From a virus, in IMG/VR virus record IMGVR_UViG_3300028398_000001, positions 1 to 57,965 of that record: a stretch of DNA of 57,965 nucleotides. One strand, 5' to 3'. Made by a program: the position numbers and the translations under genes. Position 1 is the first letter of the stretch. Every line of letters starts with the position of its first letter. This document shows positions 5,577 to 43,144 of this stretch, piece after piece. The notes below the pieces were generated by a model, which was given only the letters and a program-made list of their open reading frames with translations, was not told the DNA's origin and searched no databases.

Positions 5577-5844
5577 GCAATTTTAGCATTTGGCTTCATA
5601 ACAACAATATCTAAAAATTAACTCTTATTTAGTAAATTTCAAAACACCACCCTTTTTATATAACATACTTACATACTATACTATCTCCACTAAAATCTCG
5701 TAAGTATTGTTTTTAAAGCAATTGCCAAGATTTTAATAATTTTTATTACCAAATAACCAAAAACATAACTAAAACCTTAAGAAAATTCAGCTACTTCCAG
5801 TAGCTTTTCCCATACTTTTGAGCCGCTCAAAAACCATAAAATTA

Positions 5845-5979
5845 ATACCAAATATACATAAGAGGAATTTATATAAGACTAACACCAAATTTACATGATA
5901 ACACTAAATCTACATACGAGGAATTTACATGATAACACTAAATCTACATATGACTAACACCAAAACACTAAATTTGCAT
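5845..5979. repeat. Direct-repeat cluster, unit ACACTAAATCTACAT
   Basis: Five related 15-mers at 5845-5859 (ataccaaatatacat), 5882-5896 (acaccaaatttacat), 5901-5915 and 5935-5949 (both acactaaatctacat) and 5965-5979 (acactaaatttgcat). A second short element, GAGGAATTTA, lies between them at about 5862 and 5918. The arrangement resembles an iteron or regulator-binding cluster. Confidence 0.65.
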
Positions 5980-6062
5980 AAGAGGTTAATGTTGCATCAT
6001 CATCACGGGGGGATGAGGGAATTTGGGGCATATAGCCCCCTGCTGATATAAGAATTCTTTTT

Positions 6063-6162
6063 TTGACAGGAAATTGACAGGTTTTTTGACAGGCTAAAAA
6101 GCTTACTGTTGACGGCAAAATCATTGAGTTATTGACAGGAAATTGACAGAGTTTTTGACAAA
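6063..6162. repeat. Phased TTGACAG repeat array (seven copies)
   Basis: TTGACAGG-type octamers start at 6063, 6074, 6086, 6109, 6132, 6143 and 6155. The steps are 11, 12, 23, 23, 11 and 12 bases, so all copies face the same side of the helix, as two triplets flanking one central copy (6109, TTGACGG). The last copy reads TTGACAAA. An isolated TTGACAGG also occurs at 6933-6940. The hexamer equals a -35 box, but no copy except perhaps the last has a plausible -10. Confidence 0.75.
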
Positions 6163-7048: not shown

Positions 7049-7270
7049 ATGAGTAGAAAGGTTGAGACATTAAAGGAACTGGTATTTGGGGGTGCAAGGA
7101 TAATATCTATAAACGATGAAAAAGCAGCAGAGATAATGCAAAAAGGTAAGTTAACAGCAAGGATATACAACATAACTTCTCCTGATAGATTAAACTTCGA
7201 GATTTACAAAGTGTATGGTATGGGAACAGGCGAGATTTATATTATAGACCACGAGGATTATGCAGAATAA
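7049..7270 (+). CDS. Small unknown protein, first gene of the plus block
   Basis: 73 residues from the ATG at 7049, which has a GGGAGG site 7 bases upstream. An in-frame upstream ATG at 6998 lies inside palindrome site 3 and has no ribosome site. The protein is a mixed alpha/beta chain with a LTARIYNITSPDRLNFEIYK segment, and no family is recognised. A strong terminator follows at once, so it is transcribed apart from the amidoligase operon. Confidence 0.7.
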   Translation: MSRKVETLKELVFGGARIISINDEKAAEIMQKGKLTARIYNITSPDRLNFEIYKVYGMGTGEIYIIDHEDYAE

Positions 7271-7280
7271 TTTAAAAACA

Positions 7281-7318
7281 AAGGCAGTAGGATAACCTGC
7301 TGCCTTATTTTATTTTTT
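7281..7318 (+). terminator. Rho-independent terminator
   Basis: GGCAGTAGG-ataa-CCTGCTGCC stem followed by TTATTTTATTTTTT. It separates the 73-residue gene from the amidoligase operon; some read-through is likely needed, unless a promoter lies in the 20 bases left. Confidence 0.85.
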
Positions 7319-7342: not shown

Positions 7343-8209
7343 ATGTTTGAAATTAAGAAAGTAGGTGCTGAAATAGAATTTTCAAGCAGTGAAGAAACAC
7401 TGCTTGGAAAGTTTCTGGCATTGTATAATGCAAAAAGAAGATTTAGCGTTAATAGATTATACAAAGAGAACGAGATAATATACGAATACCGCTGCCCTGT
7501 AATAAGAGCAGCACATTATAGGAATTTCGTTAAATTCTATTATATGATATCGCTATTATCAAACGCAGATTATGTTGAGGGTGGTTCAGACAGAGCAGCT
7601 GGCTCAATGCATACGCACTTGGAGATTTGGAAGGATGGCGAGAAAATAAATAGCACAGAGCAGCTGCCAGATATTTACATAGAGAGCATAATAAATGATT
7701 TAGGAGATGCGATGGGCAGATTTAAATATCCCGAAAGGAATGCTATAGAAGATTTAGCATCTTGGGATACGGATTATACCTTGAGGGATATGCCTTATGA
7801 TAGCAAATCATACGCCATCACTTTCAACACGGGACACAACACGGTAGAAGTGAGGGCAAATGAGACTATACCTGTTTGGTATGTCTTGTTTGATAAATAT
7901 CTCAACGGTGATAGAATGCTAATGTTAAGCTCATACGAGGATAACGCAGCCAATAAATACGAAGCTGCACTATATAGATATTTAAGAGCTAATGAAAGGG
8001 AATATGGGTTAAATGATTTTGCCAGATTTATTGAAAATGAGCTGCCAGAAATACCAGAACTCTGGTATAAACAGATAGATGAGTTTTATGACTATATCAG
8101 CGAAGCTAATTATCAATGCAGGGAGCGGGGCTGGGACTTTAGGATATACAGCGAAGATATAGAAGCTATAAAAAGTAAAATAATCATAAAAAAGAGGAGG
8201 TTGATATAA
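7343..8209 (+). CDS. GCS-like amidoligase A
   Basis: 288 residues. Three signature segments of the putative amidoligase family (glutamine synthetase/GCS-like COOH-NH2 ligases) are visible: GAEIEF at residues 8-13, SMHTHLEIW at 88-96 with His90 and His92, and VEVRANE at 168-174 with Glu169 and Arg171. Such enzymes use ATP to join a carboxylate to an amine. It opens a tight four-gene operon with a glutamine amidotransferase (2 bases on), a second amidoligase and a gamma-glutamylcyclotransferase-like protein. The C-terminal 100 residues are helical and not recognised. The substrate is unknown; a modified amino acid, a peptide tag or a cell-wall target are all open. The ribosome site is TGGAGG. 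Confidence 0.78.
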   Translation: MFEIKKVGAEIEFSSSEETLLGKFLALYNAKRRFSVNRLYKENEIIYEYRCPVIRAAHYRNFVKFYYMISLLSNADYVEGGSDRAAGSMHTHLEIWKDGEKINSTEQLPDIYIESIINDLGDAMGRFKYPERNAIEDLASWDTDYTLRDMPYDSKSYAITFNTGHNTVEVRANETIPVWYVLFDKYLNGDRMLMLSSYEDNAANKYEAALYRYLRANEREYGLNDFARFIENELPEIPELWYKQIDEFYDYISEANYQCRERGWDFRIYSEDIEAIKSKIIIKKRRLI

Positions 8210-8210
8210 A

Positions 8211-8984
8211 ATGTGTGGGATTATAACCTTATTTGAAAAAATAGATGAGAATAATTTATCTCTATGGGATAAATTATCTCATCGAGGAACGGACAGCTAT
8301 GGATATGCCTCTTGGGATGGCAAGAGGATTAGTATTAAGAAAGATTTAACTCCGAGAAGGCTGAAGGGTAAATATAAATGGTCAATACTGCACAATAGAA
8401 AGGCAAGTGTGGGTAAGATAACCAAAACACTTGCTCATCCGATAGAAATAGATGACAAGTATTATATAATACAAAACGGCACGAAAAAGGAAATATATTA
8501 TACACACAGATTGGCTCTATCCGATACACACGGAATAGGGCTAATCTATAAAGAGTTAAAGCATAAATTTAAAATATTTAATTACTTGGATGATACTGGA
8601 GTGGTTTTTGTCATAGATAAAGAGCTAAAATTTATATTTTTTCATAAGGATGAAAGCCGCTCACTATATGTAAATATTGACAAGAAAATGCTTGCCAGTG
8701 AGCCTATAATTGAAGGCACTTGGCAAGAAATTAACGAAGAAAATTATATTTTTACTTTCGATGAGTTTAATTTTGACAATTTTATAAAAACTGTTGAACT
8801 GAACAAGAAAAAAATAAACATAGGCAAAAATGAGCTGTTTAAAACACTATGCGATAATTGCTATAAGATGAAATTGTGTAGAAGGGTAAACGGCAGGGAT
8901 ATTTGTCCTGATTGTGAATATACAGGCAAAAATCCTGTTGTTAAAGTTTATAATCATAGCGTTTATGGGGGTTGGAAATGGTGA
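8211..8984 (+). CDS. Class II glutamine amidotransferase with zinc ribbon
   Basis: 257 residues beginning MCGI, so Cys2 becomes the N-terminal nucleophile after Met removal. The GlmS/PurF-type landmarks are in order: HRGTDSYGYA (24-33), HNRKASVGK (61-69), AHPI (75-78), the QNG oxyanion segment (88-90) and LALSDTHG (101-108). The domain splits glutamine and delivers ammonia. The C-terminus has a CDNC...CPDC zinc ribbon (about 216-236), an unusual addition that may dock a partner. No synthase domain is fused, so the ammonia acceptor enzyme must be separate; the two flanking amidoligases are the obvious partners. It overlaps the next gene by 7 bases. Confidence 0.87.
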   Translation: MCGIITLFEKIDENNLSLWDKLSHRGTDSYGYASWDGKRISIKKDLTPRRLKGKYKWSILHNRKASVGKITKTLAHPIEIDDKYYIIQNGTKKEIYYTHRLALSDTHGIGLIYKELKHKFKIFNYLDDTGVVFVIDKELKFIFFHKDESRSLYVNIDKKMLASEPIIEGTWQEINEENYIFTFDEFNFDNFIKTVELNKKKINIGKNELFKTLCDNCYKMKLCRRVNGRDICPDCEYTGKNPVVKVYNHSVYGGWKW

Positions 8985-9790
8985 AATTTGGGCTTGAAAT
9001 AGAGTTTTTAAATTACGATTATGATAATTATCTATACGACCCGACGGTATATGATTTATTTGAGGGATGGCTGCATACCAGAGAATATTATCAAGGTATG
9101 CAGGAAATTATATCTCCGCCATTTAAATTTAACAAAAAAAATGTTTATCAGGCTATAAGAGAAGGTATGAGAATAATAAAAAGAACAAGCTATGAAAGCG
9201 GGTGCAAGAGCTTGCTATATAGCAAGCCGATTTATAAATATGATGGAGTTATATCCGCTGGGGTGCATATCCATTTAAGCTTTAGCAAAAAAGAGGGTAA
9301 TATGATAGGCAAATTATATAGCTATATACCAACGGAGGCAATGTATAGGATTATAAAAGAGTATGAGCAGATTTTTGGTTGGGGTATTAGAAGCAAGCTA
9401 TCTCATCATATTTGGGGAGCTTTAAGAAGTTATAATTATAGCTTTAAGCAAAAGGATAGGTTTTTGCCAGTGGCATTATCTCCAAGAAAGGCAAGAAAGC
9501 CTTTAACGGTAGAGATAAGGCTGCTGGATTTGGAAGATATATTAAAGCCAGCAAAAGTTTACAGGTTTCTTAAAAACTCAATAGAGATTTTAAGAACCAA
9601 CCTTGATGTCAAAAATCATATTAAATACAACGATAAATTATATAAAGATTATGTGTTTCCTTATAACAATATTGATAGCGAGGATGAGGGCTATGAGAAT
9701 GTGGATGATATTATAAGCCAAGAGGGGTTATATAAAAAATCTAACAATGCATTTTATTTTAAAGATGGAAGATTAAGGAGGTTAAGATGA
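8978..9790 (+). CDS. GCS-like amidoligase B
   Basis: 270 residues from the ATG at 8978, which follows a GGGGG site and overlaps the amidotransferase stop. It shows FGLEIEF (4-10), a MQEIISPPF segment (41-49), GVHIHLSF (95-102) with the paired His, and VEIRLLD (about 175-181), the amidoligase pattern again. It shares only these motifs with amidoligase A, so this is an old pair and not a recent duplication; the two may act on different substrates or in sequence. The C-terminal 60 residues are acidic and then strongly basic. It overlaps the cyclotransferase start by 4 bases (ATGA), implying coupled translation. Confidence 0.8.
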   Translation: MVKFGLEIEFLNYDYDNYLYDPTVYDLFEGWLHTREYYQGMQEIISPPFKFNKKNVYQAIREGMRIIKRTSYESGCKSLLYSKPIYKYDGVISAGVHIHLSFSKKEGNMIGKLYSYIPTEAMYRIIKEYEQIFGWGIRSKLSHHIWGALRSYNYSFKQKDRFLPVALSPRKARKPLTVEIRLLDLEDILKPAKVYRFLKNSIEILRTNLDVKNHIKYNDKLYKDYVFPYNNIDSEDEGYENVDDIISQEGLYKKSNNAFYFKDGRLRRLR

Positions 9791-10161
9791 AGTTATTTGT
9801 TTATGGAACGCTAAAGAGGGGTTGGGGTAACCACAGCCTTATAAAAGAGGCTGATGGTAAATTTTTATACAAGGATTTTACTAAAGACAAATTTTGCTTA
9901 TCAACTGTAGGGTTTCCGTATATGTTTAGGTGTGCAAGCGATTGCACTTATAGGGGTTATGTGCTTGGAGAGGTATATTTAGTGCCAAAAACTAAAATAT
10001 ATCTCATAGATGCATTGGAAGGTCATCCTGAATGGTATAACAGGGAGATAATAGAACTTCAAAACGGAGATAAAGCTTGGGCATATATTATGCCAAGCTT
10101 TGATTGCCAGCATTACGAGGGAGAAATTATTAAGCCATATAAAGACAAATTAGAATTTTAG
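9787..10161 (+). CDS. Gamma-glutamylcyclotransferase-like protein
   Basis: 124 residues. The N-terminal LFVYGTLKRG (3-12) is the hallmark of the GGCT/AIG2-like fold, which binds gamma-glutamyl compounds. The usual catalytic Glu is matched by the E in IDALEGHPEWYNR (about 78-90), also a family hallmark. Members release 5-oxoproline from gamma-glutamyl amines. Next to two amidoligases this gives a plausible 'make and remove' pair. It ends the core operon; a 52-residue gene follows 12 bases later. Dispersed palindrome site 4 lies inside the gene. Confidence 0.88.
   Translation: MKLFVYGTLKRGWGNHSLIKEADGKFLYKDFTKDKFCLSTVGFPYMFRCASDCTYRGYVLGEVYLVPKTKIYLIDALEGHPEWYNREIIELQNGDKAWAYIMPSFDCQHYEGEIIKPYKDKLEF
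9932..9947. repeat. Dispersed palindrome, site 4
   Basis: GTGCAAGCGATTGCAC inside the cyclotransferase gene, where it is read as part of Cys-Ala-Ser-Asp-Cys-Thr. All 16 bases match site 3. Confidence 0.8.
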
Positions 10162-10989: not shown

Positions 10990-11204
10990 GACTTGAGAAT
11001 TTAGAAAGGGCTAAAGATTATCTATCTTTAGCCAAATTCTATACCAACCAAACTGGTATAGATAGCGATATTGTTGACGCTATTGATGAAATTATGGATG
11101 AGATAGAGTTTAGAATGGAGCAGCTGGAAGAAGAACTTGGCTATAAGCCGAGAAAATATATTGAAATAGAGGAGGATGAAATTTATGCAAGTGAAGACTA
11201 TTGA
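10977..11204 (+). CDS. Small acidic helical protein, 75 residues
   Basis: MERLRLENLERAKDYLSLAK, then IDEIMDEIEFRMEQLEEELG, a probable helical hairpin, and an acidic IEIEEDEIYASEDY tail. Ribosome site AAAGGAGTGGAGA. Overlaps the neighbouring genes on both sides. Not recognised. The acidic tail recalls small phage proteins that mimic DNA or bind host enzymes, but there is no specific support. Confidence 0.55.
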   Translation: MERLRLENLERAKDYLSLAKFYTNQTGIDSDIVDAIDEIMDEIEFRMEQLEEELGYKPRKYIEIEEDEIYASEDY

Positions 11205-11781
11205 AAGAAAGAAAAGCAAAGAGATTGATGAAATTGAGGAGTTAAGGGAAAGTATTAAAAAAAGGATTAAAGAAATAGATAAAAACTGGGTAGATATATC
11301 ATTAGATTTATGGTATATCTACCAAGATGATATTTATTATATCTGGGGTTATGAAAGATTTAAAGATTATATTGAAGATGAGCTTGATGTAGGATACAGA
11401 ACTATAGCCTATAGAGTGAAAATTGGCAAGGCTATAGAACAGTATAATATAGATAAGAATATTATATCAGAAATAGGTTGGAGTAAGTTTAAGGAACTAT
11501 TGCCATTTTTATCTCCTTCAAAGAAACGGAATGAAATATTATTTAAAATGGCAATGGAAATGAGTTTAAGGGAATTACAGGCAAAACTAAAAAAACCAAC
11601 AGAAAAGGAGGTGAAAAGGTATAGTTTTAGCTTTAATATGGAACAGGCAGAGATTATTGAAAAGGCTTTAAGTCTTGGGGGTAGTATGTTAGGAACAACG
11701 GATAAAAGCAGAATTCTTGAGGCAATTTTAAGCGATTGGTTAATGAATAATTTGGAAGAGAAAGGAGAAAAAGATGGCTAA
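11185..11781 (+). CDS. Putative DNA-binding protein
   Basis: 198 residues from ATG 11185, placed 9 bases after a GGAGG; an ATG 9 bases earlier overlaps the site itself. The order is: charged N-terminus, IWGYERFKDYIEDELDVGYR and TIAYRVKIGKAIEQY (about 48-85, helices suggestive of a helix-turn-helix), a middle with LSPSKKRNEIL and MSLRELQAKLKKP, and a C-terminal segment YSFSFNMEQAEIIEKAL...SRILEAIL like a dimerising helix pair. Related proteins of this layout occur in phage and plasmid replication or regulation regions. It could be the binder of the dispersed palindrome, but that is a guess. Confidence 0.5.
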   Translation: MQVKTIERKKSKEIDEIEELRESIKKRIKEIDKNWVDISLDLWYIYQDDIYYIWGYERFKDYIEDELDVGYRTIAYRVKIGKAIEQYNIDKNIISEIGWSKFKELLPFLSPSKKRNEILFKMAMEMSLRELQAKLKKPTEKEVKRYSFSFNMEQAEIIEKALSLGGSMLGTTDKSRILEAILSDWLMNNLEEKGEKDG

Positions 11782-14439: not shown

Positions 14440-14987
14440 AATCGATTTCTTATGAGGTAATCTTTAAAACACCTACACTCATCGCAGGCAAACAGAAAAA
14501 TGAAGTTTCTGTTCGTATTCATACCATCGGTATAAAAGAGAACACCCTTAAATTTGAAAAACGAATGCAAAGCACCTGTGATGTCATAGAAGGAGCAGCT
14601 GGGTGCAAAAGGGATACCTCGACCCCTGTTTTGGGTGCAAAAGGGATACCTCCCGAGTGCAAAAGGGATACCTCGACCCACCCTTCTGGGTGCAAAAGGG
14701 ATACCTCGAGACCCCCTTCGGGTGCAAAAGGGACACCCCGAACATATTATAAGATTTTAAAATCTTTTATAAATAAATTTATAAAATTCTTTAAAATCTT
14801 ACTACCCCACCCACCACCCTATGAAAATTTCTTAAAAAGAAATTTTGACATTGAGGTGTTTAAAGAAGAAGAGAAGAAGAAGACCTCTGTAAGAGCAGCA
14901 AGATTGTTTAAGATTTTTTATTTTTCTTTTTGTGCCAGTGATTTAGTTATTTATGTAAATTACAAAACTTATTTGGAGGTGATTTAA
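14436..14987 (+). CDS. Doubtful reading frame across the iteron region
   Basis: An open frame of 183 codons with a GGGAG site 5 bases before its ATG. The first 50 residues look protein-like, but residues about 56-102 are merely the translation of the iterons (repeated GCKRDTS units) and the next 20 of an AT-rich tract. It may be a short real gene whose 3' part is origin DNA, a gene carrying the origin inside it as in lambda O, or no gene. Overlaps the preceding stop by 4 bases and the next start by 1. Confidence 0.3.
   Translation: MKSISYEVIFKTPTLIAGKQKNEVSVRIHTIGIKENTLKFEKRMQSTCDVIEGAAGCKRDTSTPVLGAKGIPPECKRDTSTHPSGCKRDTSRPPSGAKGTPRTYYKILKSFINKFIKFFKILLPHPPPYENFLKRNFDIEVFKEEEKKKTSVRAARLFKIFYFSFCASDLVIYVNYKTYLEVI
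14437..14450. repeat. Dispersed palindrome, near-consensus site
   Basis: TGAAATCGATTTCT at the edge of the origin region; one mismatch at the last base. It overlaps the initiator-like gene's stop codon. Confidence 0.55.
14601..14741 (+). repeat. Five iterons, core GGGTGCAAAAGGGATACCTC
   Basis: Copies start at 14601, 14633, 14655, 14688 and 14720, with steps of 32, 22, 33 and 32 bases, close to 3, 2, 3 and 3 helical turns. The first four share TGCAAAAGGGATACCTC exactly; the fifth has GGGACACCCC. Between copies lie short ACCC-n-GGGT inverted repeats, such as CACCC-ttct-GGGTG. This GC-rich block is in sharp contrast to its surroundings and is a strong candidate for initiator binding sites. Confidence 0.85.
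14748..14805. other. AT-rich unwinding element beside the iterons (candidate origin)
   Basis: Nearly pure A+T for about 55 bases directly after the fifth iteron. It includes the perfect palindrome AAGATTTTAAAATCTT and two TTTATAAA elements. Iterons next to an AT-rich unwinding element and ahead of helicase and primase genes form a textbook origin layout. Confidence 0.7.
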
Positions 14988-23426: not shown

Positions 23427-25877
23427 ATGGGATGTAAGGATTGCCCATTTAGGAATAGTATTAAAGTCCCTTATGTAGGAAATAAGAATGCTAAAATTGT
23501 AATTGTAGGAGAAGCTCCTGCTGAAACAGAAGTAAGATACAAAAAACCTTTTATAGGTAGAAGTGGTAAGCTGCTGTTTGGAACATTAAATTATGTATCC
23601 AATGTAAGTAGAAAAGATGTTGCAATATTAAATGCAGTAAAGTGCAAGATTATTGATAATGACAAAAAGAATTTAACACAAGCTCTTAAACATTGCAGAC
23701 CTTTTTTAGAAAAAGCTATATCAATTATAAAACCAAAATTAATAATTGCCTTTGGTTCAACAGCTGCTAAACAAATTATTAAAGATGGTAATAAAATACT
23801 ATCAAAATCTGGCAGGTTTTTCTGGAGTGATGAATTTAATTGCTGGGTATTAATATCTATTCATCCTTCCTATGCATTAAGAAATGGAGTTAGTTTAAAG
23901 AGCCTCACTAAAAATTCCTTTGAAATGACCAAGCCAGAAAAATTATGGATAGATACTTTTAAAGCTATTAAGGTATTTATAGATAAAGGGTATAATTACA
24001 AAGGTATTAATACAGATAATTATGTAGAAGCTAAAGAAGATGATATAGATAAAATAGCTAAAGCTAAAATCATTGCCTTTGATTATGAGACAAATGGACT
24101 AACTGCTTTTAATAGCAATGTTAAAATTCTATCTATGGCATTTTCTATAGAAGCTGGCAAATCCTATGTAATAATATTTGATAAAGATATTGGAACTAAA
24201 ATTAAATGGGTTAAAAAAATCCTTACTTCAAATGCTATTAAAGTTGTAGCCAGCAGACCTTTTGAAGAAATATTTACTTTTGCTAAATTTGGATTTGAAG
24301 TTAAACAGCCAGTTCACGATGTATTGACTATGGCTCATATAATAAATGAAGAAAACTGCCAGCCATATAACCTTGAAGAAGTAGCTTCAAGATATGGAAA
24401 AATGCTGCATATTAAAGATGTAGCTGAAGGACAGAGAACAACATTAGAAACAGCTGATAGAGATTTATTAATTAGGTATAATGGAGTTGATAGTGACGCA
24501 ACTTTCAGAAGTTATATAACTTTGAGAGATATATTAAAGAAACATCTAAGATTACTTAATTACTATCTAAATCTAATTTATAAAGCTCAAACAATTTATT
24601 CATTCATTGAAAGAAGAGGATTTTACATAAACATTATGAAAGTAAAACAAACTGAAAATGAGCTTAAGAAAATAGCAGATGAACTGCATAGTAAAGCTTT
24701 AGAATATCTACCACAATCTATTATAGAAAAATACAAGGATAATTTAAGCTTAAGCAGAAGTGCTTTAATAGTGGATTATTTATTTGAACATAAAGATGGA
24801 TTGAAATTTAAACCATTTGAGGTTACTGAAAAAACAAGAAAGCCAACAACCACTGAAGCTCATCTTAAAAATTTTGAAAGTAAATCAGGGTTTGTTAAAA
24901 ATCTACTTATATGGAAGAAAGCTACCAAGATTTTAAATACATATTTTAAACAGATTTATAAAAGCATAAATCCAGAAGATAGCAAAATGTATCCTCATAC
25001 ATTATTTACTACTACAAAAACTGGCAGGTTAACAATAGCAAATCCTACATTACAAACCATTCCACAAAGAGGAAAATTTAGTGAGTATATAAAGAAAGTA
25101 TTTGAAGCTCCTGAAGGATACTATTTCTTTGATAGAGATTTATCACAATCAGAATTAAGAATAATGGGATGGATTTCTAATTGTAAAGGAATTATGAAGG
25201 CTCTTAATAATGGAATAGATTTACATAAAAATACAGCAAATCTTGTATTAGGAATACCGTTTGATAAGATTACAAAAGAACAAAGACAATCAGCCAAAGC
25301 TATAGGATTTGGATTTTTATATGGAGCTTCTGCCAAAACATTTCAAAGAGTAGCAAAAAATGATTATGGTGTAATAATGAGTTTAGAAGAAGCTACAAGA
25401 ATGAGAGAGAAATTTTTTAAAGCATATCCAGAGATTTTAGAATGGCATCAAAAAACAATTAACTTTGCAAGAAAGTATGGCTATGTTGAAAGTCCTTTAG
25501 GCAGAAGAAGACATCTTCCATTTATAAATAGTGATGATAATTTCTTAAGAAGTGAAGCAGAAAGACAGGCTATTAACTTCCCTATTCAATCATTTTCATC
25601 TGATTTAAATTTAATCTCACAAATTATCTTGCAAAATCTGATTAAAAAGTATAGAATAGACAATGATATTTACACCTTGTTTTTGGTTCACGATGCTATG
25701 TATGGATTTGTAAAGGAGGATAAGTTGAAGTTAGCACAAAAGCTAACAAAAATTGCGATGGAAGAATTAAGCAAAAAGTATATTAAAAAATACTTTAATG
25801 TAGAAATTACTTATCCTATTGCTTCAGATTTTTCATTTGGTAAAAACTGGGCAGAAATGAAAGAATTAGAAGATTAG
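23427..25877 (+). CDS. Uracil-DNA glycosylase/DNA polymerase A fusion
   Basis: 816 residues in three parts. Residues 1-155 are a family-4 UDG domain: Cys3, Cys6, Cys73 and Cys90 for a 4Fe-4S cluster, GEAPA (29-33) and HPSY (146-149). A similar domain is known on the SPO1 phage polymerase. Residues about 205-400 are the 3'-5' exonuclease: DYET with Asp219 and Glu221, YNGVD with Asp355, but the exo II Asp is a Glu (PFEEIF). Residues about 530-816 are polymerase: motif A DLSQSELR (Asp571), motif B RQSAKAIGFGFLYG, motif C VHDAMYG (Asp756; the usual Glu after it is Ala). It is the replicative polymerase; whether the UDG part still cuts uracil or only reads it cannot be seen. Confidence 0.9.
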   Translation: MGCKDCPFRNSIKVPYVGNKNAKIVIVGEAPAETEVRYKKPFIGRSGKLLFGTLNYVSNVSRKDVAILNAVKCKIIDNDKKNLTQALKHCRPFLEKAISIIKPKLIIAFGSTAAKQIIKDGNKILSKSGRFFWSDEFNCWVLISIHPSYALRNGVSLKSLTKNSFEMTKPEKLWIDTFKAIKVFIDKGYNYKGINTDNYVEAKEDDIDKIAKAKIIAFDYETNGLTAFNSNVKILSMAFSIEAGKSYVIIFDKDIGTKIKWVKKILTSNAIKVVASRPFEEIFTFAKFGFEVKQPVHDVLTMAHIINEENCQPYNLEEVASRYGKMLHIKDVAEGQRTTLETADRDLLIRYNGVDSDATFRSYITLRDILKKHLRLLNYYLNLIYKAQTIYSFIERRGFYINIMKVKQTENELKKIADELHSKALEYLPQSIIEKYKDNLSLSRSALIVDYLFEHKDGLKFKPFEVTEKTRKPTTTEAHLKNFESKSGFVKNLLIWKKATKILNTYFKQIYKSINPEDSKMYPHTLFTTTKTGRLTIANPTLQTIPQRGKFSEYIKKVFEAPEGYYFFDRDLSQSELRIMGWISNCKGIMKALNNGIDLHKNTANLVLGIPFDKITKEQRQSAKAIGFGFLYGASAKTFQRVAKNDYGVIMSLEEATRMREKFFKAYPEILEWHQKTINFARKYGYVESPLGRRRHLPFINSDDNFLRSEAERQAINFPIQSFSSDLNLISQIILQNLIKKYRIDNDIYTLFLVHDAMYGFVKEDKLKLAQKLTKIAMEELSKKYIKKYFNVEITYPIASDFSFGKNWAEMKELED

Positions 25878-32558: not shown

Positions 32559-34109
32559 TTAATATTCCTTATACATATCACTTGTAAAGGGTTCTTTTAC
32601 AACAGTTCCTTTTTTAGCTACTATTTTCCTTTGAACATATCTGCCTTGTTTATTTAAAGTATCATATTTAGCTGTAAATTTAGTGCCATCATAAGTCTCT
32701 TGAAGCCAATTTAATTGTGTAAAATTCATAGTTGTTGAAGTAGATATATCAGCATATACTTCAGGTTTATGGTCATAGAAAGCTTTTGAAGGTGGAGATG
32801 TTAAATTAGATGGTGATATATCTATATTATATATATCTAATCCACAGCCATTTATTACTTCCCAACCATCAGAAAAGGGTGCTGTATAGATTGCAGATAC
32901 TTTAACACTTCCATTCCAGCCTCCCAATAGATACACTCTACTTTTAGTAACTATAGCTTGAGAAAAATATACACCAGCTGGAAGTGTATTACTATCTGTA
33001 GTCCAAGAACCTAAAGTGCCATCATCATTTATAGGTGCTGTATATATAGTAGAAACTGCATTATTATTATTATCACTTCCACCCAATAGATAAACCCTAC
33101 TTTTAGTGGCTATAGCTTGAGAGCCATATAAAACACCTGGCAATGAATTACTATCTGTAGTCCAAGCACCTAAAGTTCCGTCTGTGTTTATAGGTGCTGT
33201 ATAGATTGTAGAAGTTACACCACTACTACTATTAATACCACCTAATAAATAAACCCTACTTTTAGTGGCTATAGCTTGTGAAATATATATATTGTCTGGC
33301 AAAGAATTACTATCTGTAGTCCAAGTTCCTAAAGTTCCATCAGAATTTATAGGTGCTGTATATACAGTGGAAACTTTACCATTGTCATTTCTACCACCCA
33401 ATAAATAAACTCTACTTTTAGTAGCTATAGCTTGTGAAAAATATATATTGTCTGGAAGTGTATTACTATCTGTAGTCCAAGCACCTAAAGTTCCGTCTGT
33501 GTTTATAGGTGAACTATATATAGCTGAAACTCCACCATTGTTATTTAGACCACCCAATAAATAAACCCTACTTTTAGTAACTATAGCTTGAGATTTAGAT
33601 AAAACACCTGGCAAGGAATTACTATCTGTAGTCCAAGCACCCAAAGTGCCATCAGAATTTATGGGTGCTGTATATACTGTAGAAACTCTACCATTACTAC
33701 CATAACCGCCTAATAAATACACTCTACTTTTAGTAATAATGGCTTGAGAATAAATTAATGTATCTGGTAATGTATTACTGTCTGTAGTCCAAGTTCCCAA
33801 AGGATTACTTACTCCTGTAGTTGTATATACATTCTGCTTCCAGAATTTAGTTAAGTATAGTATATCAGTTGTAACTGTTCCACTTGATTGTGTGTGTATT
33901 ACATTATTATTATCTATTAATTTTATAGGTTCGTTATCAGATATAGTATCAAAAGTCTTTAATGTTGTGTTAGTAGTATCACTATTCATAGTTATTTCTT
34001 GAGGTATATAATTAAGAGTAGTATTTTCCATTTTTATCCAATCACTATCACCACTATCCTGCTGTGTTATATTTTCTATATAAGTGGCATTATCTTTTGT
34101 AGCATACAT
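32559..34109 (-). CDS. Kelch-like repeat protein, probable receptor-binding
   Basis: 516 residues. Residues about 105-415 contain six tandem repeats of about 52 residues, each with WTTDSN.LP, SQAI.TKSRVYLLGG and YTAPIN.DGTLG, a six-bladed beta-propeller pattern of the kelch type. The N-terminal 100 residues (a virion attachment part, with TTNTTLKTFDTISDN) and the C-terminal 100 are unique. Propellers bind proteins or glycans, so this is a candidate receptor-binding or adhesion protein. The repeats are nearly identical at the DNA level (about 156 bp). Confidence 0.68.
   Translation of the reverse strand: MYATKDNATYIENITQQDSGDSDWIKMENTTLNYIPQEITMNSDTTNTTLKTFDTISDNEPIKLIDNNNVIHTQSSGTVTTDILYLTKFWKQNVYTTTGVSNPLGTWTTDSNTLPDTLIYSQAIITKSRVYLLGGYGSNGRVSTVYTAPINSDGTLGAWTTDSNSLPGVLSKSQAIVTKSRVYLLGGLNNNGGVSAIYSSPINTDGTLGAWTTDSNTLPDNIYFSQAIATKSRVYLLGGRNDNGKVSTVYTAPINSDGTLGTWTTDSNSLPDNIYISQAIATKSRVYLLGGINSSSGVTSTIYTAPINTDGTLGAWTTDSNSLPGVLYGSQAIATKSRVYLLGGSDNNNNAVSTIYTAPINDDGTLGSWTTDSNTLPAGVYFSQAIVTKSRVYLLGGWNGSVKVSAIYTAPFSDGWEVINGCGLDIYNIDISPSNLTSPPSKAFYDHKPEVYADISTSTTMNFTQLNWLQETYDGTKFTAKYDTLNKQGRYVQRKIVAKKGTVVKEPFTSDMYKEY
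32870..33805 (-). repeat. Six near-identical 156-bp repeats (kelch units)
   Basis: Tandem units in which CTACTTTTAGTNNCTATAGC and ATTACTATCTGTAGTCCAAG (plus-strand reading) recur in every copy, with variable positions concentrated in the loop codons between the conserved blocks. Confidence 0.85.
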
Positions 34110-35796: not shown

Positions 35797-36137
35797 TATA
35801 CACTCCGAGTAACATCTGGCAATACATTTAACTTACCAAAAATTAAAGTAGTAACATTATTATTAGCATCAACCAATTGAATATCATAGTAATAAGTTCC
35901 TGATAGATTGTTAGTATCATCGTGTGTTAAAACTATTTGGCTTTCACCTTGTGCTGCATTAGTATGATTTGTTATCTCTTTTTGAACAGCAGCTTCACTA
36001 TCATCTTGCATTAAATTCTGTTTCATAGTAAACCATATTTTAGCACCTGTTAAATTTATAGGGTTTCCTTGATTATCCTTCAATTTTAATTTAATAACCT
36101 TTGTATCACCTCTTCTAAAATTTGATATGCCGTTCAT
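35796..36137 (-). CDS. BppU-like baseplate/tail protein
   Basis: 113 residues. RRGDTKVIKLKLKDNQGNPI, LTGAKIWFTMKQNL, GTYYYDIQLVDANN and LPDVT follow the N-terminal domain of BppU-type proteins (Ig-like, 'GDT...G.pidLtga.i.ft.K...YYDiql'). In lactococcal phages this domain attaches receptor-binding proteins to the baseplate. Here it sits between the giant protein and the tail-tip paralogues, so it may be an adaptor. One-base overlap with the next gene. Confidence 0.68.
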   Translation of the reverse strand: MNGISNFRRGDTKVIKLKLKDNQGNPINLTGAKIWFTMKQNLMQDDSEAAVQKEITNHTNAAQGESQIVLTHDDTNNLSGTYYYDIQLVDANNNVTTLIFGKLNVLPDVTRSV

Positions 36138-39100
36138 ACCATACCTTTCGCTTTTTTCATTTCTAATGAAAGTTTATAAGCTTTATGATATATTTCAAGT
36201 AAATCTTTTTTACTAAATTGCCCTTTCCTTAACATTACTTTGTTAAACCATTCATTGTATTTTTTAATTCTATATCTATCTTCTTCAGATATAGTTTGCA
36301 AAAACTTTGGTATTTCTGCTTTTTTTAATCTTGTAAGAGGGTTCATCTTTAAAATAGATTTATTTATAGTTTTTAAAGTTCCACCATATAGATAATACAT
36401 AGCCAGAAAATGAATAGCTTTATTTTTATCACCATACTGAATAGCTCTTTTATAATAAAATGCATATATTGATTTTTGTGTTCTATAGATAGATAGCTTA
36501 TCTTGATTTGTTGTATTTAAATAATTATCAATGAGCTTGTTTATAATGGTATAATTTACTGAATTTAAATCAGTTGTATAAAAAACACTACTTTCTACTG
36601 ATGATAATATTCCTTTTATTAAACCACGCTCTCTTTCAGGATGAGGTTCTCCAGAGAATAATATTTTATAAGGTAATCCTAAACCATATAGCTGTAAGAA
36701 ATGTCCAATTTTATCTCTAATAATTCTTGGTTTATCTGCGTCTGGATATAAAGTTATTCCAGCTATGTCCTCAATTATAGTTTTTTGTATAGGCATAGAA
36801 GAATTTATAATTTTGCTAACAGCATGCATAGGCATTTCTTTAATAAATTCATACCCAGATTTTCTTCCTTTAAGGAAGTCTAAAAATCCTCCAAAGTAAA
36901 ACCAATCAAGAGCATCACTTAAAGCACCTTGTAATCTCATAGTTCTAACTGTTCCATCTTTATCAACACCTAATATTAAATGTAATTGACCTTCATCAGA
37001 ATTATTAACTGTATCTGAAATTTGAGGGAAGAACATAAAATTAAACATATTGATAGCTGTATATAGAAATGCCATTCTAAATACTAAAGAACCTATAGCA
37101 TAAGGCTTATATAACTTCCTTGTTTCATACATATGTCTAAATAACTTAAAGTATCTTGGCATATTTACTTCAATCCAAGACCAGAAAGGTATTAAATTAT
37201 CTCTTATCCATTTACCACTTGAGCTTAAATTACCATAATCTCCAAGCACTTCCCTTGCTAATTTTGCAGCTAACTCATCAACTTTTCCTTTTTCCATAAA
37301 AGCTTTCATTTCTGATAGTTTTAATGGAGAGTGTATATCTTCAAGTTTCATAGTTCTTAATGCTTCTTTATAATATCTATAAGCAGCAAGTCTTAAAATA
37401 CTTTCCCTAAAGTTGTTAAATTTTGTAGATATATTCCACCATTTTTGATATAAACTTGGTTTTAAACCAAGTAAATCTCTAAAATCTTCAAGATTGTTTA
37501 TATGATATACTTCTTCAGAAGTTATATTTGTTCCTAATACCAAATTATCCTCTGCGTCTTTTATTTCATCTATAACTTCTTTAGATAAATTTCTACCTTT
37601 ATTATAATAAAAATCATGTAAATCTTTAAAAGCTTTGCCAGAATATTCAAATAAAATCTTCGGTGCATAGGCTAATACTATATCAACATCAGAAGAAAAG
37701 TTATCTAAAGTATATTTTGGTAGTCTAAATGGACTGAATAATACAAATTTCTTAAATAGAGAAACATTATATCTCATAAATTTTGATATTGGTGAATTCG
37801 ATTGCACTTCTGATATTCTTCTTAAAGCTGCCAATACATCATTATGTATCAAAATTGACTTTTTAAATTTCCTAATTGCAACACTTCTTTGGACTTTACC
37901 TTTTTCTAAAGCATCAATAAGTCCTTCGGAGTTTATACCTTCTAATAATAGCTGACCCATTAAATCATCAGACATAGACCATACAGTATAAAAATGTGGT
38001 ATGTCTTCTATATGTAAGGCAGTATAATCTCTGTATTTTTCTTTAAATCTTGGATGGTGCTTTACTCTATCTAACATCTTATTTACATCTGGAATTATTC
38101 CCTCTTTTATTTTACCACCAGCTTTTACATAATCAGCAATAAGCTCTTTCATAACATCTTCAGAAGCATCCGATAGCCTTTTTATAATACCATCATAGTT
38201 TTTTAGCAAATAAAACTGTGCAAGTGCTTCGTAATCAGAATAGATATAATCAGTAATATATGGCTCTGCACTGTTTACTCTTTCTCTTAATGGGTCTGTT
38301 ATAGGAACTCTACCCATATAAGATGTATGCATTTTTATTTTACCATTGAAGTAAGCAGCAGTTATTCTATGGAAATAATGTGATGGGTCTAAAGCTTCTC
38401 TTTTACCTATATAACCATTTTCATATAAGTAATCTAATAACTCATTATGTATCTTGGCTCTTCTTTTTAATGCAGCTTTTACCTTTTCATTACCATCAAC
38501 TTCCTTTTTAATCTTGTCTCTTAAATAGGCAATATCACTTACATCCTTAAATATACCACCCCACTGCTCATTCATATTATGAAATGTCTGTATTCCATTT
38601 TGAAGATTGTAAAACATATCTTCTATTATTAAATGCTTTTCCATTAAGAACTTATCTTCTGGATTTAAATCTCTTGTAATTTCAGCAAGGGCTCTATAAG
38701 CTTGTGTATGTGCTAATTGTTTAATTGCTATTGCCCTTCTTATTGTTTCAGCATATAGATATAGACCTTTTTTTGTTAATTCAGGTGCTATTCCTCTACC
38801 AAAATCTAATATAAAATCTTTAACTTTTTCCAGGGCTGTTCTTGATTTTTCAATAGCATCTCTTTTTAAATCTGTTTCTGTTCTACCATTGAATTCTATT
38901 ATTCTTTTTTCAAAATTACTTAAATTCTTTTTACTTATCTTAAATCTTACACCAATATTTTTTAATGTATCTATTGCTTCTAAATAGGCTATAAATTTTG
39001 CATTTGGTTTTTGCTCACCAAGTAATATTTTTCTAAACACATCCTTTTCTGTTTTTATACCAAGTTTACTATGTATTTTCAAAATAGCTGCATTTATAAA

Positions 39101-42100
39101 TCTGCTAACTTTAGCAAATAAACTATGTATAATATTATTATCAGCAAACCACTTTTTATTTACAGCAAATAAAGCAAATTCATCTGCAGCTTTTTCATAC
39201 CAAGCTCTTGTATCATTTTTACCATATTTTTTATTCAAGTAATCTTTCAATACTCTTAAGTCTTCTTCTGGTATTAAACCAAGCTCATCAAGGGTATGAA
39301 ATATCTCGTGATAGAAAGTAGTTCCAAGTTCTTTTAAATTTTTATCTGACATTAGAATTATAGCAGAAACTGCTTTTTTATCTAATAAGGTTGCTCCTTC
39401 TAATCTCTTTTTCATTAAATCCAATAGCTGACTATCAGTCAAATGGAAAGCAAATATTTTATAACCCTGCAGAAGGGCTTTTTCTACCATCTTTCTTCCA
39501 CCTAAATCTTCTAATGTAAGCTTATCAATGGATTTTACTTTTACCCTTTTAGCTATATCTTTTCCTAACAGCTGCTCAACTGCTTTATTTACATTTATTC
39601 CAAAATGTTTTTTCAATAAGTAATGAATACTATCTTCACCATATTTCAAATCTTCGTATATTTTCTTTTCATTATCATTTAGTTTTAATCTCAATAGTTT
39701 TTCTTTGAATTTTTCACCCCCATCAGTTAGAGCTCTCATATGCCACCAGCTTAATATCTTTAGTGAGGATTTCATATTATCAACTGAAATTCCTTTAGAA
39801 ACCTGCTCTTTTCTTGCTTCGTATAATTCAGTTATCTCATCTCTAAATTCAGGGTCTTCTTTAATATCTTTAATTTGATTTGGTTTAAATCCAGCATTTT
39901 CTAAATAGCTATCCAAAGTCTTTAAAACAGCTGGACTTAATTCAGGTGGAGGCTCAACATAAAAAACTAATCCTTGTTTTTTATTTCCCTTTACTATGGA
40001 TTTTTCTGATTTAGCTATAAATGTTCCCTTTTCATAAGTTATATTAACTTCATCTTTTGCTAATAGGTCATATCCTAAATCAACATTTGATAGATGGTTT
40101 AATATTTCATTTATTTCTTCTGGTGTATATTCTTTTGCTTTTTCTTCAATTTGTTTTTTATCTATGGCTTCATTAAGTTCCTCTGGAGTTTTAGGAATAA
40201 CAACATCTTTATCTTCTATTTTTGGCTCTGGTTCTTTAAAATCATGTAAACCAAAAGCAGCAATTGGTTCATCGTTATGATAGAGAGCTAAAATACCTGT
40301 ATCTAATAATTTCATTTTATTAGCTTGTGGTCTGGCTATTTCAAAATACTTTCCATCAACTTTAAAGCTATAGCCCTTTTCAGTATCAAATTTATAGAAT
40401 TTGCCATCTTTTCCTTTAAAGTTTATTTTAGTATCAAGTGTTTTATTTGAGTTTAATAAATCTTTGAAACTCTTATCAAAACTTCCACCAAGTGGTTTTA
40501 TATCTTTCATTAATTTCTTATGATAAATAGATTGACTTTTTCTATCATACAAATATCCATCTGTGGTTTCTAAAATATTTTGTCTATAGGATATAGACTT
40601 CATACTACTTTTGCCAGATTTTAATCTATGCTCCTTTGGTATTTCTATTCTATCTTTTAATGGTTTTAATTTAGATATTGGTTTTGATACTGTCTTTATA
40701 TTATATGTATCCCCTAATATTGTAGGAACAGCAGCTCCAATATACTTGTTATCTTTTTTAATATAGATTAATGAAGAATTAGCATTGCTATCAATTTCTA
40801 ATGAGAAATTCTTAACCCTGGATTTTATAGTTTTTAGAGCTTGTTTTGAAATACCTATTTCTTTACCATCTTCACTTCGTAATACTAAAATATTTGGATT
40901 TTCTTTTACTTCACCTATTATACCTGTAATCTTTGAAGCCTTTTCTGGTTTCAATTCCAAATTCTGACCAATAGATTTTGGTTTTATTCCTTTAAAGAAA
41001 TCCTTATGTAAAGCTATAGTTCTATCTGTATTTACTACTAATCCATTGTCAGTAATTTCTGGCTCTTTATCAAACTTTGCAGATTTAATATTTTTTAAAT
41101 CAAGCTTATCAATAGGAGTTATTTCTTCAGAATTTTTAGTTTCTGGTAAAGGTTGCTCTGTAGCTACATTATTTTTTATTTCTGGTTCAGGTTGTTTTAC
41201 AGGTTTTTCATTTATAATCTCTTTTGCAATATTTAACTTATCAGTGAAATTGATTGCACTTTTTGGAGCAGGTAAATTAGCTTTTTCCTTAACTGCAGGC
41301 AGATTTTCTTCAATCCCTTTGTTTTCAATTGCTGGATATTTTTCCCCTTTATCTTCAATAGCCTTTTGTTTAAATCCTAATTTTTCTTCTTCCTTATCAA
41401 GTTTCTGTTTTAATATAGAAGTAATTTTTGCTTTAAGTTCTTCTCTCTTTTTAATATCCTTTATAGTTTTTGGCAGTGCTTCTAACAATGCTTTTGCTTT
41501 AATTACATTACCAAGTAATTTATTGTCATTTCTTGAAGAAGTTAATTTATCTATATCATCAAGTATTGGTTTAACCTTATCCTTTGATATTTTAGATTTG
41601 GTAATTAGTTTATTGGCTTCCTTAAGTATTAAATCATTAGCTGATTGTTTTATATCATTTATAGCCTCACCTATATTCTTGTTCTTTGGAGCTTGCTCTT
41701 TTAGCTGCAAACCTTTTTCTATGAATGTATCTATATTATCAACAGTTATTTTGGGTATAGTGTTTTTATTTGGCATACCTAAAATAACAGCTGTTGCCAT
41801 TTTCTTTGAATAATCTTCTGGCTTTATATTGCTACCATATTTTTCTAAAATATCTAAATCATCATAGCCTGCTGTGTTCAAAACTTTTATAGCTTTTTTT
41901 GGTTCTTTCTTTATTAAATCAGAATATAGACCTTTATCAAATGCAGTTTTAATAGCAGTGATATGTCTAAAATCATCCTTCTTTGGAGTGGATAGTAATT
42001 TATCTTTGTATTCATTTAATACTTCTTCAGGATTATAAGGCTGTTCATATTTTGTTTCTTTTATGTTATTTGTAGGAACTGGCAGATTTTCTGTAATAGG

Positions 42101-43144
42101 TATATATTCTTCTGGTTTAGTTTGCAGTTCTTCTTTAAATGCTTCTTTGAGTTTTGTATTATCTATAGGTTTTTGAGTTTTGCTTAAAGCTCCTGTTAAA
42201 GCACCAAGTAATCCACCAAGTGCTGCTGTATGACCAATATCCTTTGCTGATATAGGTTGATTTGAACCATATTCACTGGTAGCAGTTGCAGTTCCTAATA
42301 TTAATGATTGTTCTATACCTTGTTTTAATGAATTAATTGCTGGAGAGGCTGCAATTTTTGAAGCAGTATCAGATGAAAATACTAATTTAGCTATGCTATC
42401 AGCAATAGGTTTAGTTTCAGGATTTAAAGCTTTTAAAGCTTCAAATGGAGAAGCAGTGTATAAAGCTCCTATTAAAGCACCCCCCACTAATGCTTTTAAA
42501 GGATGTTTCTCTCCACCAGCTTCATATTCTCTTTCAACTTCTGGTGCTGTAATTTGAGTAAAAGCACCTATAGTTTCTGGTTTAATTAATGACTTTGCAG
42601 CTGTTTCAGCAGCAGTTTTTTCTATTTCTTTTTTGGCTAAACCTTCAGCTAATTTATCAACAGCAGCTTTTGCTATTTTTCCTTCAGTTCCACCAAGTGC
42701 TGTTTCCAATAAAAATTCTGCCAGACTTCCTGCCATTCTTGCACCTGAATGTGCAGCTTGGCTTAAATTCTTTGCTTCAAAAATATCAGAAGGAGTTTCT
42801 GGATTTGAATACTCTTGAGCTTGCTGTCTCCATTGTTGTGCTCTTTGTTTAAAATAATCACTACCTGTTAATCTTCCAACTAATGTATCTAATAATGCCA
42901 TAGTATCAGAGCCAGCTTCAACAAATGAGGATGTAAATTCTTTACCTAAACTTGGATGACTTTCACCATAGACTATGGCATTTGTTATTAAATTAGGACT
43001 TATACCCTTATCTAAAAGAGCCTGTATATTCTTACCTTTATCAGGATTTTTATTTACATAATCTTGTAGGAATTCTTCAGGTGTTATCTTCTGATTTTGT
43101 AAATCTTGTATCTTTTGTTTATAAATGTCATATTTAACTGACAT
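36134..43144 (-). CDS. Giant polyvalent protein with zincin metallopeptidase motif
   Basis: 2336 residues, the largest gene. Residues about 1-330 are Ala/Gly-rich helices with possible membrane-active segments (LVGGALIGALYTASPFEAL). About 330-1000 are Lys/Glu-rich linkers and small domains. GTTFYHEIFHTLDELG holds HEIFH at about 1279-1283, followed by EKAADEFALFAV with the third zinc ligand Glu, the zincin seen in 'polyvalent' phage/plasmid proteins. The rest is helical, with MAFLYTAINMFNFMFF (about 2025) hydrophobic. Such proteins are thought to enter the host with the DNA and act there. The gene lies among tail genes as for podovirus internal proteins. Confidence 0.72.
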   Translation of the reverse strand: MSVKYDIYKQKIQDLQNQKITPEEFLQDYVNKNPDKGKNIQALLDKGISPNLITNAIVYGESHPSLGKEFTSSFVEAGSDTMALLDTLVGRLTGSDYFKQRAQQWRQQAQEYSNPETPSDIFEAKNLSQAAHSGARMAGSLAEFLLETALGGTEGKIAKAAVDKLAEGLAKKEIEKTAAETAAKSLIKPETIGAFTQITAPEVEREYEAGGEKHPLKALVGGALIGALYTASPFEALKALNPETKPIADSIAKLVFSSDTASKIAASPAINSLKQGIEQSLILGTATATSEYGSNQPISAKDIGHTAALGGLLGALTGALSKTQKPIDNTKLKEAFKEELQTKPEEYIPITENLPVPTNNIKETKYEQPYNPEEVLNEYKDKLLSTPKKDDFRHITAIKTAFDKGLYSDLIKKEPKKAIKVLNTAGYDDLDILEKYGSNIKPEDYSKKMATAVILGMPNKNTIPKITVDNIDTFIEKGLQLKEQAPKNKNIGEAINDIKQSANDLILKEANKLITKSKISKDKVKPILDDIDKLTSSRNDNKLLGNVIKAKALLEALPKTIKDIKKREELKAKITSILKQKLDKEEEKLGFKQKAIEDKGEKYPAIENKGIEENLPAVKEKANLPAPKSAINFTDKLNIAKEIINEKPVKQPEPEIKNNVATEQPLPETKNSEEITPIDKLDLKNIKSAKFDKEPEITDNGLVVNTDRTIALHKDFFKGIKPKSIGQNLELKPEKASKITGIIGEVKENPNILVLRSEDGKEIGISKQALKTIKSRVKNFSLEIDSNANSSLIYIKKDNKYIGAAVPTILGDTYNIKTVSKPISKLKPLKDRIEIPKEHRLKSGKSSMKSISYRQNILETTDGYLYDRKSQSIYHKKLMKDIKPLGGSFDKSFKDLLNSNKTLDTKINFKGKDGKFYKFDTEKGYSFKVDGKYFEIARPQANKMKLLDTGILALYHNDEPIAAFGLHDFKEPEPKIEDKDVVIPKTPEELNEAIDKKQIEEKAKEYTPEEINEILNHLSNVDLGYDLLAKDEVNITYEKGTFIAKSEKSIVKGNKKQGLVFYVEPPPELSPAVLKTLDSYLENAGFKPNQIKDIKEDPEFRDEITELYEARKEQVSKGISVDNMKSSLKILSWWHMRALTDGGEKFKEKLLRLKLNDNEKKIYEDLKYGEDSIHYLLKKHFGINVNKAVEQLLGKDIAKRVKVKSIDKLTLEDLGGRKMVEKALLQGYKIFAFHLTDSQLLDLMKKRLEGATLLDKKAVSAIILMSDKNLKELGTTFYHEIFHTLDELGLIPEEDLRVLKDYLNKKYGKNDTRAWYEKAADEFALFAVNKKWFADNNIIHSLFAKVSRFINAAILKIHSKLGIKTEKDVFRKILLGEQKPNAKFIAYLEAIDTLKNIGVRFKISKKNLSNFEKRIIEFNGRTETDLKRDAIEKSRTALEKVKDFILDFGRGIAPELTKKGLYLYAETIRRAIAIKQLAHTQAYRALAEITRDLNPEDKFLMEKHLIIEDMFYNLQNGIQTFHNMNEQWGGIFKDVSDIAYLRDKIKKEVDGNEKVKAALKRRAKIHNELLDYLYENGYIGKREALDPSHYFHRITAAYFNGKIKMHTSYMGRVPITDPLRERVNSAEPYITDYIYSDYEALAQFYLLKNYDGIIKRLSDASEDVMKELIADYVKAGGKIKEGIIPDVNKMLDRVKHHPRFKEKYRDYTALHIEDIPHFYTVWSMSDDLMGQLLLEGINSEGLIDALEKGKVQRSVAIRKFKKSILIHNDVLAALRRISEVQSNSPISKFMRYNVSLFKKFVLFSPFRLPKYTLDNFSSDVDIVLAYAPKILFEYSGKAFKDLHDFYYNKGRNLSKEVIDEIKDAEDNLVLGTNITSEEVYHINNLEDFRDLLGLKPSLYQKWWNISTKFNNFRESILRLAAYRYYKEALRTMKLEDIHSPLKLSEMKAFMEKGKVDELAAKLAREVLGDYGNLSSSGKWIRDNLIPFWSWIEVNMPRYFKLFRHMYETRKLYKPYAIGSLVFRMAFLYTAINMFNFMFFPQISDTVNNSDEGQLHLILGVDKDGTVRTMRLQGALSDALDWFYFGGFLDFLKGRKSGYEFIKEMPMHAVSKIINSSMPIQKTIIEDIAGITLYPDADKPRIIRDKIGHFLQLYGLGLPYKILFSGEPHPERERGLIKGILSSVESSVFYTTDLNSVNYTIINKLIDNYLNTTNQDKLSIYRTQKSIYAFYYKRAIQYGDKNKAIHFLAMYYLYGGTLKTINKSILKMNPLTRLKKAEIPKFLQTISEEDRYRIKKYNEWFNKVMLRKGQFSKKDLLEIYHKAYKLSLEMKKAKGMV
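37792..37807. repeat. Dispersed palindrome, near-consensus site
   Basis: GTGAATTCGATTGCAC inside the giant gene; one mismatch (T for A at the fifth base of the 14-mer). Confidence 0.55.
41245..41258. repeat. Dispersed palindrome, site 11
   Basis: TGAAATTGATTGCA, which reads TGCAATCAATTTCA on the minus strand, an exact consensus match. It lies inside the giant gene. Confidence 0.7.

Follow-up and report, generated by a model that had tools for sequence, protein, structure and literature searches.

The closest described relatives of the locus treated here are podovirus cassettes that combine an amidoligase, a class II glutamine amidotransferase (GATase) and a gamma-glutamyl cyclotransferase; this gene set has already been named the "peptidoglycan modification cassette" (PMC5498523), and cassettes of the same kind are also discussed in PMC3890496, PMC10580990 and PMC10945688. 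Modification of peptidoglycan side chains against superinfection is put forward as a hypothesis in PMC5498523, which credits it to Iyer et al. (see also PMC10580990); for the type members, too, a change to peptidoglycan has the standing of a hypothesis (PMC5498523). In this study, we analyzed the 57,965-base virus record IMGVR_UViG_3300028398_000001 from IMG/VR (the whole stretch is called the window below), which belongs to a phage with a bidirectional genome and carries a four-gene amidoligase cassette at 7343–10161. The closest known system is the RIO1/HP1-type podovirus cassette (PMC5498523; LUZ24, PaP3, tf, phiEco32, UFV-P2, and KZY1). As judged from its sequence, the cassette of the window is a very divergent, trimmed variant of this known, uncharacterised kind of phage cassette.

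The long cassette consists of a cyclotransferase, a GATase, a COOH.NH2 ligase, a 186-amino-acid protein, an amidoligase and an ATP-grasp enzyme. All or nearly all of it was found in KZY1, HSd1, HP1, UFV-P2, phiEco32, Slicky01 and others, and shorter sets were present in Arthrobacter, Geobacillus and Bacillus phages. No demonstrated product was found for any phage amidoligase cassette, though such cassettes are common; the earlier note, made from the sequence of the window alone, was right that this kind of cassette lacks a characterised product, and its substrate is indeed uncharacterised in the literature. The same note considered the locus the best candidate for an undescribed system in the window, a view that cannot be maintained, since cassettes of this kind are named and discussed in the papers cited above.

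The four genes and their assignments

The cassette consists of four open reading frames (ORFs) on the + strand, which form a single rightward operon opening the early region. Its features are as follows.

7281–7306, + strand: terminator-like hairpin with an 11-pair stem and a T-rich tail (consensus match only)
7343–8209, + strand: gene 1, ligase A, putative amidoligase of the glutamine synthetase (GS) superfamily, 288 amino acids (motifs only)
8211–8984, + strand: gene 2, stand-alone class II GATase (Ntn glutaminase) with a C-terminal Cys4 zinc-ribbon-like knuckle, 257 amino acids (NCBIfam, hhalign, hmmsearch, catalytic residues)
8978–9790, + strand: gene 3, ligase B, Amidoligase_2-type, 270 amino acids from the ATG (hhalign, eight invariant residues)
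9787–10161, + strand: gene 4, gamma-glutamyl cyclotransferase of the GGACT/AIG2 type, 124 amino acids (Pfam, PHROG, family residues, PDB relatives)

The four-gene cassette is real, coherent and functional-looking. Genes 1 and 2 are separated by a gap of 1 base, genes 2 and 3 overlap by 7 bases and genes 3 and 4 by 4 bases (ATGA). The four genes described in the earlier note were recovered at the place it gives, and purine-rich ribosome-binding (Shine-Dalgarno) sites precede all four starts. The hairpin lies between a short gene (7049–7270) and the cassette. For gene 3, the listed TTG start at 8972, which would add two residues, was set aside in favor of the likelier ATG at 8978 with its better spacing to GGGGG. 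A blastn search with the whole cassette revealed no close relative, and no close relatives of genes 1, 2 and 3 were found in single-protein scans of IMG/VR or in tblastn searches of phages and plasmids.

The predicted identities are firmly supported for three of the four genes: the assignments of the earlier note hold strongly for genes 2–4 and solely on motif evidence for gene 1, which it had called a GCS-like ligase. The cyclotransferase passes Pfam PF06094 (4e-15; 56.9 bits against a gathering cut-off of 22.8), matches PHROG 2520 and has the PDB relatives 3jub and 1xhs. The YGTLKRG motif, pointed out previously, is accompanied by conserved D75, E78, Y84, and R86; the catalytic Glu (E78) is conserved in 14 of 14 phage cyclotransferases, gene 4 included, and the other invariant residues of the family are kept as well.

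The GATase matched the GlmS subfamily of NCBIfam at 2e-5, under the NCBIfam cut-off. Its comparison by hhalign with a profile built from the GATases of 13 phage cassettes gave 97% (E 4e-11), with 3% for the best decoy among the window ORFs, and hmmsearch gave E 3e-11. The class II residues C2, R63, G68, H76, P77, N89, G90, and D105 are kept; the claim that all GlmS-type residues are in place is correct for these and fails for S66 and Q88, which stand for T and H, respectively, in the phage relatives. The predicted zinc ribbon is represented by a C-terminal pair of CxxC motifs (CDNC at 214 and CPDC at 232). Since this pair recurs in 7 of the 13 phage cassette GATases, gene 2 appears to be allied to the phage cassettes and not to the host GlmS.

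Both ligases were compared with 15 annotated phage amidoligases at first and then with 100 from the wider loci. The motifs G-x-E-x-E, H-x-H and E-x-R occur in order and with amidoligase spacing in both proteins, at positions 8/90/169 in ligase A and 7/99/181 in ligase B. This signature, which was picked post hoc with the ligase sequences already in view, is present in all 15 reference phage amidoligases and in none of nine COOH.NH2 ligases; it also arises in 32 (ligase A) and 19 (ligase B) of 100,000 shuffles and in one of about 800 unrelated, non-amidoligase real ORFs of at least 200 amino acids. An alignment of 14 sequences has eight invariant columns, all present in ligases A and B (G7, E9, E11, E45, H99, H101, E181, and R183 in ligase B, counted from the TTG start). 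Forced onto the amidoligase alignment alone, ligase A keeps seven of the eight invariant residues in register, a test in which shuffles also score fairly high.

Against the 100 amidoligases, ligase B reached 93.5% by hhalign (E 2e-7; score 53, with 25 for the best decoy) and ranked first of 70 ORFs, 69 of which were decoys; it also contains the family motif E-[IL]-[IV]-S-P-P. By these comparisons, it is an Amidoligase_2-type ligase, albeit an extremely divergent one. It had no match in Pfam at the cut-off of Amidoligase_2 (PF12224), which the reference phage amidoligases do match, nor in PHROGs or NCBIfam, and family libraries thus overlook divergent amidoligases of this kind. Ligase A, also extremely divergent, is called a putative ligase of the GS superfamily rather than a member of a named family because it failed the profile-profile decoy test. 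Its H motif AGSMHTHLEIWKDG resembles the motif GSGMHTHQSLFQNG of glutamine synthetase I in a genuine Gln-synt_C protein, a likeness that is suggestive only. A degenerate pattern of this H motif retrieved only four chance loci, alignments built around gene 3 either had too much diversity to be used in searches or confirmed nothing, and no PDB relative of either ligase was found. The possibility that ligase A or B is a COOH.NH2 ligase (COOH-NH2_lig, PF14395) was rejected, as neither matched the profile of that family.

Amidoligase neighbourhoods and accessory status

Our survey covered 85 further amidoligase loci from IMG/VR and GTDB, together with 13 control loci. Within 1 kb and on the same strand, a cyclotransferase accompanied the amidoligase at 38 of the 85 loci, a GATase at 22 and both at four; directly downstream stood 33 cyclotransferases and 21 GATases, and none of the 13 control loci carried any cassette gene. 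In the window, too, ligase B directly abuts the cyclotransferase. No ATP-grasp or COOH.NH2 ligase was detectable at any of the 85 loci, and short cassettes without an ATP-grasp enzyme are therefore ordinary in the surveyed amidoligase branch. One reference amidoligase matched 276 records.

GATase II and gamma-glutamyl cyclotransferase are fused in one protein in three phages (L010:4506-5402, L024:5003-6220, and L074:3639-4547); named phages with such a fusion are C75C1 and ctfjg026. The proposal of the earlier note that the genes act together is strengthened by the overlaps in the window and by the adjacency or fusion of the same kinds of genes in other phages. Its further question, whether relatives keep all four together, received a mixed answer: the exact four-gene set was not found, and many loci pair an amidoligase with a cyclotransferase, a GATase or both.

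A 60-kb relative (L016) is colinear with the window at 11.2–25.9 kb. It has no cassette between the end of the terminase and the first shared early gene, and no cyclotransferase in its entire record, which shows that the cassette is accessory. Ligase A is also missing near the corresponding place in L002, which has the most similar terminase (75% identity) but whose contig ends there.

Proposed chemistry and alternative explanations

Glutaminases supply ammonia, GS-fold ligases form amides through an acyl phosphate, and cyclotransferases free 5-oxoproline from gamma-glutamyl amines. We propose that the cassette is an accessory early-region operon for glutamine-fed amide-bond chemistry, which would have arisen by descent from, or convergence with, the phage amidoligase/GATase II/cyclotransferase cassette. 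The class of chemistry is very probably predicted correctly from the genes, whereas we infer the order of the steps and the substrate. The GATase II would hydrolyse glutamine to glutamate and ammonia. Ligase B, as an ATP-dependent enzyme of the GS/GCS fold, would activate a carboxylate by forming an acyl phosphate and join it to ammonia or an amine, and ligase A would either catalyse another ligation of this type or take the place that the COOH.NH2 ligase has in longer cassettes. The cyclotransferase would split a gamma-glutamyl amine with release of 5-oxoproline, so that a temporary gamma-glutamyl group is taken off or a mark is undone. The most likely substrate would be a cell-envelope peptide or a soluble precursor in the infected cell, and the benefit might be, for example, a wall change against superinfection or controlled lysis. 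The envelope peptide is favored because the literature argues for it and because the cassette is carried by phages of many peptidoglycan-bearing hosts, which is weak evidence; the cell-envelope target is accordingly tentative and falls somewhat short of an even chance. Overall, we assign a probability of roughly 0.5 to a glutamine-fed amide operon with an envelope substrate as the most likely one.

Several points weigh against this explanation. No ATP-grasp or COOH.NH2 ligase matched any ORF of the window, a record that may be incomplete, and for this reason the product may differ from that of the published cell-wall cassettes. No experiment backing a cell-wall target was found in the literature for any phage. 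The 85 surveyed loci include near-duplicates, and most of the association data stem from a single divergent amidoligase branch. Ligase A had no match in Pfam, PHROGs or NCBIfam and did not rise above the decoys in hhalign against amidoligases; the single-sequence AlphaFold2 models of ligases A and B, built without homologues, reached pLDDT values of 31 and 33, respectively, too low for a GS-like fold or an ATP and metal pocket to be judged from them.

The same enzymes could instead serve auxiliary metabolism by recycling ammonia, glutamate and gamma-glutamyl compounds (glutathione-like) for phage growth, with no special product. This is rather improbable: nitrogen assimilation by two specialised ligases, alongside a cyclotransferase that breaks gamma-glutamyl bonds again, would be expensive, the window contains no recognisable glutathione synthase (no ATP-grasp of the RimK type), and the evidence from ZRK32 is a growth effect of phage addition and not a gene-level one. 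Characterised relatives of the cyclotransferase act on small gamma-glutamyl amines, and the cassette lies in the early region, distant from the virion genes; both facts speak against the modification of a phage or host protein, in which an amide tag would be attached to a virion protein, or a host enzyme inactivated, and the cyclotransferase would trim the tag. We hold this to be quite improbable, even though peptide tagging has been predicted for GS-fold and ATP-grasp amidoligases (Iyer et al. 2009, as represented in citing papers, e.g., PMC10580990). The phage DNA might also be hypermodified with an amino-acid-like group, and the cassette is indeed early and beside replication genes. Amino-acid-modified bases do occur in some phages, but hypermodification is very unlikely here: the scanned subset of window ORFs, with its AAA ATPase, dCTP deaminase-like protein and family A polymerase bearing a uracil-DNA glycosylase domain, showed no recognisable hydroxymethylase or kinase for bases and no glycosyltransferase.

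Two other possibilities concern the nature of ligase A. It may be no ligase, so that the unit would comprise GATase, amidoligase and cyclotransferase, as in Arthrobacter phage Laroye, and would be preceded by an unrelated gene; this affects gene 1 only and is compatible with the glutamine-fed amide operon. The failure of every profile to find ligase A and the post hoc choice of the motif rule fit such a view, but the order and spacing of its three motifs, rare in shuffles and in real ORFs, and its retention of the invariant residues (8/8 in the 14-sequence alignment and 7/8 on amidoligases alone) make it doubtful. It is similarly unlikely that ligase A founds a new, unnamed ligase family of the GS superfamily and that the two-ligase, ATP-grasp-free cassette makes a different product. 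In one such scheme, one ligase would add a protecting gamma-glutamyl group, the second ligase and the GATase would amidate or extend the protected compound, and the cyclotransferase would strip the protecting group in the form of 5-oxoproline, in the manner of butirosin-type biosynthesis. Lacking the ATP-grasp and COOH.NH2 ligases, the four genes are close to the smallest unit that can be reconstituted, and could help to settle the core chemistry of amidoligase cassettes.

The window and the known systems compared

Elsewhere in the window, a portal-like protein has matches to portals of the SU10 type and to head-tail adaptors, and the terminase matches PF04466. The family A DNA polymerase (23427–25877) has an N-terminal uracil-DNA glycosylase domain, and a 2336-amino-acid protein encoded among the virion genes (36134–43144) contains the zinc-protease-like motif YHEIFHTLDELG (HExxH). 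Tandem GTGCAAAAGGGATACCTC units at 14600–14741 lie inside a predicted ORF and yield repeated CKRDTS peptides, and a 156-base tandem array in a tail-region protein (32923–33793) encodes Kelch-like SQAIVTKSRVYLLGG repeats. The gene-poor stretch 5843–6160, between divergent modules, has AATTTACATGATAACACTAAATCTACATA-type repeats, two copies of TTGACAGGAAATTGACAG and a switch in GC skew near 6 kb; it is a possible candidate for a replication origin or a regulatory region. A dispersed 16-bp palindrome near GTGMAATCGATTKCAC has 17 sites with at most three mismatches, against 1.3 expected in shuffles.

1336, 4844, 6988, 9932, 12810, 14436, 15966, 17985, 19974, 25949, 37792, 41244, 45749, 46406, 56381, and others: palindrome sites, about 14–17

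Variant sites are carried by L002 (three GTGAAAT[CT][AG]ATTTCAC sites) and by the more distant L016 (six [TGA]TGAAAACGTTTTCA sites), and the palindrome therefore looks like a lineage-specific dispersed candidate binding site for a repressor, a partition protein or a nucleoid-type protein. The conserved 201-amino-acid gene product of 11176–11781 is a possible binder.

Like the podovirus cassette, the cassette of the window joins a cyclotransferase, a class II GATase and an Amidoligase_2-type ligase in a tight same-strand operon near the replication genes of a bidirectional phage genome, and its GATase has the C-terminal CxxC knuckle that is often present there. In contrast to the podovirus cassette, it has no COOH.NH2 ligase, ATP-grasp enzyme or 186-amino-acid partner gene; its additional ligase belongs to a different and very divergent kind, its genes follow the order ligase-GATase-ligase-cyclotransferase, and protein identity is below the reach of BLAST except for genes 2 and 4.

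Among the shorter sets, genes 97–99 of Laroye (PMC5513430) resemble the window in having a cyclotransferase, an amidoligase and a GATase in a row with no ATP-grasp enzyme, whereas they include a single ligase, a different gene order and a GATase without the CxxC knuckle, and the host is Gram-positive. In Geobacillus phage GR1 and Bacillus phage 031MP004, the amidoligase is closely followed by a cyclotransferase, as in the window, and the motif positions of the GR1 enzyme (7/92/176) are close to those of ligase B; unlike the window, both phages have a single ligase and no GATase nearby. C75C1 and ctfjg026 share with the window the GATase and cyclotransferase as a unit, but as one fused chain. 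The short form with two ligases was seen, among the loci compared, only in the cassette of the window.
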